Source: Myxococcaceae bacterium | GTDB taxonomy: Bacteria; Myxococcota_A; Polyangia; Polyangiales; Ga0077539 | Reading direction: 5' to 3' | DNA: 64,000 nt | NCBI GenBank assembly: GCA_004297725.1 | Contig: SCUS01000151.1 | Span: forward strand, 62,001-126,000 | In this document: one piece after another, positions 36,860 to 39,816 of the stretch | How the letters are laid out: every line of letters starts with the position of its first letter | How positions within the stretch are numbered: position 1 is the first letter of the stretch | Notes under the pieces: model-generated | Told to the model about the DNA's origin: nothing | The model's input: the letters and a program-made list of their open reading frames with translations, nothing else | Databases searched by the model: none | Made by a program: the position numbers and the translations under genes

Positions 36860-38092
36860 AGCCCCGCGGCCATCGCTCGCATCGCCGCGATCGCCGGCGC
36901 ATTCCTGCTCTCGGGCTGCTCCCAGGAGCTCGCGACCTCGCCGGGCGCGGACGCCTCGGAGCACGACGCGCCTCGACTGCCTGAGGTCGATGGTCGCCAG
37001 CCGATCCTGCCCCTGCTCTTCGTCGACGCCGGGGCCGCGAGCCCGCATGACGCGCCCCGCACGGACGCTCCGAGCGTCACGCCCGATGCGGTGGGCGTCT
37101 CCGATGCGGTGGGCGTCCCCGATGTGGTGGGCGTCCCCGATGTGTCGATGCTCGTGGATGCAGCCCCGATCGACGCGGGCGCCCCGGTGGACGTCGGCGG
37201 TCGTGACGCCTCGCTCCCCGTCGACACGGGCGCCCCGACGGACACCGGTCCTCGCGGGGGCCCGGCTACGGCCGATCGGCCTGTCCCCGTCGATGTGCCC
37301 GCCATGGTCGATGCAGGCACGCTGCCGGGCTCCAGCCCCGCCATCCCCGCGTGGGACGGAGCGACCGTGGCGCACGTGCGTGAGCTGCGCGCCCGCGGCG
37401 TGGCGATGGGCAACCGCCTCGGGGTCTTCGCCAAGATCGGCGACTCCATCACCGAGAGCGGGAGCTTCCTCTTCGACATCGGCTTCGGCTGGGCCGAGCT
37501 GGGCGGCTACGGAGCCCTCAACACCACGATCCAGTACTTCCGCGCGACGACGCTCGACGGCGGGGTGAGCTCCTTCAACCGACCGAGCGCCTGCGCCACC
37601 GCCGGGTGGACCACCGACGACGCGCTGGCCGGCGGCAACGACGCCCCCATCTGGCGTGAGCTCCGCGCGATCCGCCCCTCCTGGGCGATCGTGATGTACG
37701 GCACCAACGACGTCGATCGAAGCACCGTCGCGGCCTTCACCGTCAACCTGAACCGCATCGTCGACATCATCGAGTCGGTCGGGACGGTGCCCGCGCTCAG
37801 CACCATCCCCGACCGCTACGACGGCGCCGACCGCGCAGCCCGGGCGCTGCAGATCTCCGCGGCGATCCGCAGCGTGGCGGCGGCGAGGCACGTCCCGCTG
37901 CTCGACTACTGGGCCGCGCTCCAGGGGCTCCCCATGCACGGCGTCTCCGACGACGGCATCCACCCCAGCGTGTACCTCTCCGGAGGCAGCACGGCCTCGG
38001 CCAGCTTCACCCCGGAGGGCCTGCAGTACGGCTACAACGTCCGCAACCTCACCGCGCTGCTGATGCTCGACCGCATGCGCTCTCTCCCCTGA
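36857..38092 (+). CDS. SGNH/GDSL-type hydrolase lipoprotein
   Basis: Lipobox FLLSGC; NRLGVFAKIGDSITESGSFL, WAIVMYGTNDVD and GVSDDGIHPS correspond to SGNH blocks I, III and V; N-terminal DA/VG/P-rich linker. Confidence 0.8.
   Translation: MSPAAIARIAAIAGAFLLSGCSQELATSPGADASEHDAPRLPEVDGRQPILPLLFVDAGAASPHDAPRTDAPSVTPDAVGVSDAVGVPDVVGVPDVSMLVDAAPIDAGAPVDVGGRDASLPVDTGAPTDTGPRGGPATADRPVPVDVPAMVDAGTLPGSSPAIPAWDGATVAHVRELRARGVAMGNRLGVFAKIGDSITESGSFLFDIGFGWAELGGYGALNTTIQYFRATTLDGGVSSFNRPSACATAGWTTDDALAGGNDAPIWRELRAIRPSWAIVMYGTNDVDRSTVAAFTVNLNRIVDIIESVGTVPALSTIPDRYDGADRAARALQISAAIRSVAAARHVPLLDYWAALQGLPMHGVSDDGIHPSVYLSGGSTASASFTPEGLQYGYNVRNLTALLMLDRMRSLP
37083..37144 (+). repeat. 18-bp in-frame tandem repeat (DAVGVS/DAVGVP/DVVGVP) in the SGNH lipoprotein linker
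   Basis: gatgcggtgggcgtctcc-gatgcggtgggcgtcccc-gatgtggtgggcgtcccc-gatgtg. Confidence 0.85.
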
Positions 38093-38119
38093 TCGCGACG
38101 CCTGCTCCGTCCCCGTGGT

Positions 38120-38135
38120 GGGTGTGACCACACCC
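38120..38135. repeat. Short inverted repeat just upstream of the HD-domain gene
   Basis: GGGTGTG-AC-CACACCC ending 1 bp before the ATG at 38137. Confidence 0.45.
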
Positions 38136-38136
38136 C

Positions 38137-38664
38137 ATGGGTGAGAGGCGCAGCCCAACGCTCCCTCCGACCACCGCCGTGTACGCCGACCTCCTCGACC
38201 TCCTCGTCGCCCTCGACCGCATCCCGCAGGACCCGCGGTACCACCCCGAGGGCGACGCCCTCTACCACTCCCTCCAGGTGTTCCAGCACGCCCGCCGGGA
38301 GTCCCGCGACCCGGCCCTCGTCGCGGCCGCGCTGCTGCACGACGTCGGCAAGGCCCTCCGCTCCGGCGACCACGCCGTCGAGGGCGCCGACCTCCTCGAA
38401 GGACTCGTCGCGCCCCGGGTGGTCTGGCTCGTCCGCCACCACCTCGACCTGCTCCACAGCCCCGGCGCGACCCGTCGCCACTTACGGGGTACAGTAAAAC
38501 TCCATGACCTCGAACTGCTCCGCCGCTGGGACCTGGCGGGCCGCTCGCCCCGAGCGAGCGTGTGCTCCCCTGAAGAAGCCGTGACCCACCTCGCCCTCGA
38601 CCCTGCTGCCCTCGGCCCCGACGCCGACGAGGCCCGCCATGGAAAGGACCCCTCCTCCCGCTGA
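38137..38664 (+). CDS. HD-domain phosphohydrolase-like protein
   Basis: QDPRYHPEGDALYHSLQVFQHARRES..LVAAALLHDVGKALRSGDHAVEGADLL..VVWLVRHH: HD motif series, resembling the HD domain of CCA-adding enzymes. Confidence 0.78.
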   Translation: MGERRSPTLPPTTAVYADLLDLLVALDRIPQDPRYHPEGDALYHSLQVFQHARRESRDPALVAAALLHDVGKALRSGDHAVEGADLLEGLVAPRVVWLVRHHLDLLHSPGATRRHLRGTVKLHDLELLRRWDLAGRSPRASVCSPEEAVTHLALDPAALGPDADEARHGKDPSSR

Positions 38665-38986
38665 CCGTCTCTGTCTCCGCGCGACCTTCGACCGGGTCCC
38701 CGCCGAGGCCGCGCTCTGGGCGCCGCCGGACGCCGCCCTCGACGAGCTCCGGGACGCCGTCCGCCGCGCCGTCGAGGCCGTGCTCTCCGAGCGTCAGCGA
38801 GCCATCGTCGAGTGGCACTTCTTCGAGGGCATCTCCCAGGGGGAGATCGCCCGCCGGCTGGGGGTGAGCCAGCAGGTGGTGCAGAAGTCCATCTACGGCG
38901 TCACCCGCCGGGGCCGCCCGGTCGGCGGGTCGCTTCGCCGGCTCCGCGAGGCCCTCACCGCCCCTCCTGGGAGCACGGACCGCTGA
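38639..38986 (+). CDS. Sigma-70 region 4-like HTH protein
   Basis: AVEAVLSERQRAIVEWHFFEGISQGEIARRLGVSQQVVQKSIYGVTRR. Confidence 0.75.
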   Translation: MERTPPPADRLCLRATFDRVPAEAALWAPPDAALDELRDAVRRAVEAVLSERQRAIVEWHFFEGISQGEIARRLGVSQQVVQKSIYGVTRRGRPVGGSLRRLREALTAPPGSTDR

Positions 38987-39816
38987 TGGCGCGCATGGGA
39001 CCAGGCGGGCTTCGCGGAGCGATCGCGGGCGAGGCCGCGAGGCTCATGTACGAGGAGGGCGTGAAGCAGTACTTCACCGCCAAGCGGCTGGCGGCCAAGC
39101 GCCTCCTCGGCCGGGTCGGAGGTCGTCGGACGCGCTACCACCCGCAGGACCTGCCCTCCAACGGCGAGATCCGAGACGCGCTGCTGGCGATCGCGGAGTA
39201 CGCCGAGGGCTCCGGCCGCACGAAGCGGCTCTTCGCGATGCGGGTGGTGGCGCTGCGGGCGATGAGGGCCCTCGAGCCCTTCGAGCCGAGGCTCATCGGG
39301 AGCGTCAGCACCGGGCACATCCGTCGAGGGAGCGACATCGACCTGCACGTCTTCACCGACGACGAGGACGCGCTCATGGAGCACCTCAAGGCCCTCGGCT
39401 GGCGCTGGGAGACCGAGCGGGTGTCGATCATGAAGGGCGGCGCGATGCGGGACTTCCTCCACGTCCATGTGCAGGACGCCTTCGAGTTGGAGCTCACGGT
39501 CTACCCCCGCCGCGACCTCCGCTTCCGCCCTCGCAGCAGCACCGACGGCAAGCCCATCGTCCGGGTGAAGGCCCACGCGCTGGAGGCGCTCATCGCCGAG
39601 GAGCACCCGGTTGAGTGGCAGCGCTACCTCACCGACGGAAGCCTGCCGGAGCTCGACGACGACGACGAGGACGAGGGGATGAGGGACCTCTCCTCCTGGG
39701 ACGGGCTGCTGTGCCCCGACGACGAGGACGACGACCCGGAGATGGCGCCGACCGCGGAGGAGCTGGCGCTGGACGAAGGTCCCTACGACCCGCTGCCGGG
39801 CTTCGAGAAGACGTAG
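38986..39816 (+). CDS. Nucleotidyltransferase (pol-beta superfamily) with acidic C-terminal tail
   Basis: LIGSVSTGHIRRGSDIDLHVFTDDEDAL: GS-x-x-x-G...DxD motif; DDDDEDEG C-terminal region; ATG overlaps previous stop. Confidence 0.75.
   Translation: MARMGPGGLRGAIAGEAARLMYEEGVKQYFTAKRLAAKRLLGRVGGRRTRYHPQDLPSNGEIRDALLAIAEYAEGSGRTKRLFAMRVVALRAMRALEPFEPRLIGSVSTGHIRRGSDIDLHVFTDDEDALMEHLKALGWRWETERVSIMKGGAMRDFLHVHVQDAFELELTVYPRRDLRFRPRSSTDGKPIVRVKAHALEALIAEEHPVEWQRYLTDGSLPELDDDDEDEGMRDLSSWDGLLCPDDEDDDPEMAPTAEELALDEGPYDPLPGFEKT

Follow-up and report, generated by a model that had tools for sequence, protein, structure and literature searches.

A nucleotidyltransferase–HD protein pair, split or fused, in Myxococcota, giant sulfur bacteria and Planctomycetota, with a probable operon-specific regulator in most myxococcotal loci

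An operon of three overlapping genes

Analysis of a 64,000-nucleotide stretch of a Myxococcaceae bacterium genome (hereafter the window) uncovered three open reading frames (ORFs) on the plus strand, at 38137–38664, 38639–38986 and 38986–39816, which encode an HD-domain protein (HD), a helix-turn-helix protein resembling sigma factor region 4 (HTH) and a pol-beta-type nucleotidyltransferase (NT). The ORF coordinates agree with the overlaps of 26 nt (HD/HTH) and 1 nt (HTH/NT) reported in a first-pass annotation made from the sequence alone, and the 26-nt overlap is seen again in most near relatives. The operon is present as a single copy in the host genome, and its conservation in three phyla excludes chance as the origin of the trio. 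Searches of the three proteins against NCBIfam, PADLOC and PHROGs returned no curated assignment. GTG 38179 is the likely start of the HD gene (38179–38664, plus strand) in place of ATG 38137, the start in the ORF list, since the GTG aligns with the ATG or GTG starts of relatives; ATG 38137 itself sits within a conserved DNA element (38117–38145) described below. Upstream of the operon, a 519-aa ORF contains an 18-bp tandem repeat (3.4 copies, window positions 37082–37142) in a linker region, and its C-terminal part resembles an SGNH hydrolase when judged by eye.

The HD gene product matches the Pfam domain PF01966 at 41.5 bits (cut-off 22). Alignments place its metal-ligand set, H44, H68-D69, H79, H102 and D132 (numbered from 38137), at 38266–38532 on the plus strand, with an HPE motif encoded just 5′. 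Across 55 HD proteins, H44, H68, D69, H79 and H102 are invariant and D132 is nearly so.

The NT gene (38986–39816, plus strand) encodes a 276-aa protein with 61 relatives that falls just under the Pfam cut-off for NTP_transf_2 (20.4 bits against 21). Alignment of 56 HD-linked NTs locates the catalytic motif GSVSTGHIRRGSDID (G105–D119) at 39298–39342 and a third acid, E169, at 39490–39492, both on the plus strand; G105, S106, D117, D119 and E169 are invariant in this set, and none of the 56 members matches PolyA_pol (PF01743). An N-terminal helical module (QYFTAK..A..R / LPSNGEI) recognized in the alignments occupies 38986–39231, and a C-terminal tail of acidic low-complexity sequence, with YDPLPGFE as its last residues, occupies 39652–39813 on the same strand. 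The HD and pol-beta motifs and the acidic tail quoted in the first-pass annotation are present in the sequence. The tail is a low-confidence region of the AlphaFold2 model (mean pLDDT 84.9); together with its terminal peptide, Y[DE]PLPGFE, it is found in many Polyangia only and is possibly a docking motif. In Foldseek, the NT core matches terminal uridylyl- and adenylyltransferases best, but at a TM score of about 0.25 these matches reflect the common core only and do not suffice for assignment to a subclass.

Pairing, fusion and joint decay of NT and HD

Among 97 relatives, 15 encode an NT. HD adjoins NT at 14 of these 15 loci, and the remaining one, L005 at a contig end, retains the last part of HD; HTH is missing from a single locus (G080/L015), where HD abuts NT directly. 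When the relatives were scanned with an HD profile, those with a strong HD match (E below 1e-40) were exactly the 15 with NT, the remaining matches (E 1e-15 or weaker) being other HD proteins. The two genes are therefore present together in 15 relatives and both absent from 82 (Fisher p about 6e-18, although Fisher tests here overstate independence because the loci share descent). A scan of named genomes recovered 61 NT loci in Myxococcota (Polyangium, Sorangium, Minicystis, Byssovorax and others), in gammaproteobacterial giant sulfur bacteria of the Thiotrichaceae (Thiomargarita, Parabeggiatoa and others) and in Planctomycetota, and HD adjoins or is fused to NT at all 61. Besides HD, HTH and NT, no further conserved neighbour, and no conserved effector gene, was found among these loci.

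In Planctomycetota, every ORF read (35 of 35) is a single chain of about 370 aa in which NT precedes HD across a linker of about 20 residues; the split two-gene form has the reverse order. The fused chain indicates that the HD–NT gene pair is a split bifunctional enzyme. Distances among NT proteins correlate with those among HD proteins (r 0.83; 0.74 for split loci). The earlier suggestion that NT and HD form a split pair is borne out by fusion, by perfect co-occurrence and by the joint decay described below, and neighbourhood conservation extends to HD–NT in three phyla, but HTH proved optional rather than part of the core. An origin as phage or plasmid cargo was rejected, as no relatives were found in viral contigs or plasmids; membership of a known defence system was likewise rejected, PADLOC matches being weak only.

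Copies with a dead or missing partner provide natural controls. In 36 of 399 sampled Pseudomonadota genomes (about 9%), the only relative is one of the whole NT protein, and no specific HD gene is present. The aligned HD-less relatives have typically lost S106 (GPV or GAV in the motif) and/or D117/D119, whereas copies with a neighbouring HD in the same comparison keep all catalytic residues. On the tree, the HD-less proteins form one starred group separate from the HD-linked ones. These pseudomonadotal proteins (L107–L134), whose scanned members match no Pfam or NCBIfam model, appear from their degenerate active sites to be a pseudo-nucleotidyltransferase family worth a study of its own.

Decay is also seen from the side of HD. 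The NT is dead in five fused proteins, of which three have lost the HD ligand H79 or H102. In five more HD copies from Planctomycetota the NT core is absent; the N-terminal module persists in four of them, and four of the five have lost a ligand (L202, D132N; L203, H102C; L204, H79F and H102R; L205, H102R). In all, 7 of 10 HD copies whose NT is dead or deleted have lost metal ligands, versus 0 of 85 with an intact NT; the loci being related, these events are not independent, and the dead-NT copies require just two losses on the tree. The direction is consistent, and suggests that each half retains its chemistry when the other does. The N-terminal module survives degeneration or deletion of the NT core; its persistence in the Planctomycetota HD proteins L202–L205 after loss of the core marks it as separable, and it may bind the target.

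A region-4-only protein and a direct-repeat element

The middle gene (38639–38986, plus strand) encodes a 115-aa protein that matches PF08281 (sigma-70 region 4) at 37.2 bits (cut-off 25.7). Matches are limited to region 4, and the core-binding region 2 that a sigma-70 factor would have as well was not found in the protein, in agreement with the first reading of it. At E<1e-3 it is the only homologue in its genome. The gene is found in most Myxococcota loci and is missing from Thiotrichaceae and some Polyangia.

The presence of HTH tracks a direct-repeat element 5′ of HD, GGTGGGTGTGACCACACCCCATGGGTGAG (38117–38145, plus strand), which we propose as the HTH operator. The element pattern, TGGGTGT-N9–15-[TA]GGGT[GA], occurs at 27 of the 32 HTH-positive loci with sufficient upstream sequence versus 0 of 21 HTH-negative loci (Fisher 2e-10), against a background of one match in 1.43 Mb; L021, L033 and L035 carry near variants. 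The strict form is present once in the 9.4-Mb genome, at the operon, while a looser form is expected several times by chance. Phylogeny alone does not account for the tie, as the HTH-negative Polyangia L040, L058 and L062, nested among HTH-positive ones on the tree, also lack the element. HTH is therefore read as probably a dedicated autoregulator of the operon, given that its presence follows the element and that the strict form has a single genomic copy; the dedicated regulator proposed earlier is retained on this basis. At L032, which has no detectable HTH, the first half-site alone remains 5′ of HD (TTGGGTGTGACC) and is perhaps a remnant left by loss of the regulator. A perfect 7-bp palindrome 5′ of ATG 38137 was also considered as the operator and rejected, because, of the two, relatives conserve only the direct repeat.

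Relation to known enzymes and proposed function

GlnD carries out uridylylation with its NT domain and removal of UMP with the neighbouring HD domain (PMC4285133). The enzyme described here resembles GlnD in coupling a pol-beta NT and an HD as one unit, with the same NT-HD order in the fused form, but GlnD is about 900 aa long compared with about 370 aa for the fused enzyme. GlnD_UR_UTase (PF08335) has no match in the window or in the fused proteins and the host genome has its own GlnD/GlnE-type genes elsewhere, on which grounds a split GlnD was rejected. CCA-adding and poly(A) enzymes share with it the HPE..D...H...HD.GK motif of their HD domains and a fused form with NT before HD; the NT here differs in lacking PF01743 and in its N-terminal module. 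Two ordinary CCA/poly(A)-type (PF01743) genes lie elsewhere in the host genome, which does not depend on this NT for CCA addition, and a replacement of CCA enzymes was rejected. Having its own copies of both, the host has had neither its CCA/poly(A)-type nor its GlnD/GlnE-type genes replaced by the enzyme. Separately, the Sorangium genome that carries L036 has a pair of above-cut-off PF01743 matches (G412:C1:11610806-11617981) inside one 8711-aa open frame.

The resemblance to CCA-enzyme HD domains noted in the first-pass annotation holds for the shared motif, and profile comparison also recovers such domains, but the HD is nearer to PhnZ by both profile and fold. This proximity, the absence of PF01743 from NT and the two CCA/poly(A)-type genes elsewhere leave descent from a CCA enzyme unsupported; the annotation had seen a CCA-enzyme-like pair. 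MntA-HepT (MNT-HEPN) systems likewise place a small NT beside a partner gene, but the partner here is HD rather than HEPN and the MntA profile match is weak (15.1 bits, cut-off 60); a type VII toxin-antitoxin was rejected on these two points. No description of the NT-HD pair was found in family models or the literature. With the trio conserved, catalytic residues present and no clear assignment to a known family, the earlier claim of an undescribed system survives.

We judge about evenly balanced the reading in which HD and NT form a GlnD-like reversible nucleotidylylation enzyme, distinct from GlnD and provided with an operon-specific HTH autoregulator. HD and NT would be two subunits of one bifunctional enzyme, a single chain in Planctomycetota; NT would attach a nucleoside monophosphate to an acceptor, and at the binuclear HD site the group would be taken off again or the product hydrolysed. 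The sigma-4-like protein would bind the direct repeat before the operon and regulate this operon alone. Pairing, fusion, catalytic residues intact in both partners, joint decay and a regulator-tracking element are all established at the sequence level. Any shared pathway would also account for the joint decay, among them one in which NT and HD catalyse successive steps, whichever acts first. Two further points count against a switch: HD is closest to the oxygenases PhnZ and TmpB, and some Planctomycetota retain HD without a live NT.

The nearness of HD to PhnZ and TmpB, its closest solved structures by profile and fold, raises the doubtful alternative that it is a mixed-valent diiron oxygenase of that type, for which NT activates or tailors the substrate in a small metabolic pathway rather than a switch. 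Among PDB structures, the profile search ranks PhnZ first (E 9e-14), as does the comparison of predicted folds (E 8e-6, TM 0.65; model pLDDT 91). All six HD ligands align with the six PhnZ iron ligands, in the H...HD...H...H...D set of these oxygenases, given in a superfamily review as H-HD-H-H-D (PMC8177086). The YxxE loop as a whole is not conserved, however: its glutamate (E38) is present in 90 of 90 copies but its tyrosine in just 57 of 90, and substrate residues are unconserved, an equivalent of PhnZ R158 being missing from most fused NT-HD proteins. The HD also keeps the lysine of HD.GK where PhnZ has a histidine, scores 25.7 bits against a TIGR03276 cut-off of 214.6, and, in contrast to PhnZ and TmpB, is paired with an NT. 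The HPE motif, moreover, is shared with CCA-type HD domains, which are not known to be oxygenases. Because its partner is an NT, phosphohydrolysis is the favoured chemistry for HD.

Phosphohydrolysis could also serve a nucleotide-derived messenger or metabolite made by NT and hydrolysed by HD, as in RelA/SpoT, with no protein acceptor. HD domains often hydrolyse nucleotide signals, the Ap4A hydrolase YqeK has a dinuclear HD site (PMC8177086), and the mutual dependence of NT and HD and the dedicated regulation of the operon would suit such a signal; yet no conserved effector gene lies beside the operon and NT matches no known messenger synthase family among the Pfam, NCBIfam, PADLOC and PHROGs profiles, and we consider this explanation unlikely. 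Somewhat less probable still, and on a par with an oxygenase, is a pair that processes or caps RNA ends in the manner of CCA-adding and poly(A)/poly(U) enzymes, in which HD would take off either phosphates or the nucleotides added: the HD motif held in common with CCA enzymes and the terminal transferases found by Foldseek point that way, but those matches are weak, NT lies outside PF01743 and the normal CCA/poly(A)-type genes exist.

Extended to all carriers, reversible nucleotidylylation would make this a new system of regulatory modification, spread over Myxococcota, giant sulfur bacteria and Planctomycetota, in which NT-HD reversibly modifies a target recognized by the shared N-terminal module, a region-4-only factor acts at one operator in the genome, and a widespread Pseudomonadota relative that has lost catalysis keeps the fold; we put this fuller picture forward tentatively. 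Enzymes that pair NT with HD serve central control (GlnD) and tRNA maturation (CCA), among other roles, and the present one is a further NT-HD enzyme, named by no curated family, that occurs both split and fused. Its probable regulator, a sigma-region-4-only protein with apparently one genomic target, offers a clean case of its kind. Since natural dead copies serve as controls and carriers are in culture (Sorangium, Polyangium and Minicystis), the substrate should be within reach of ordinary biochemistry.
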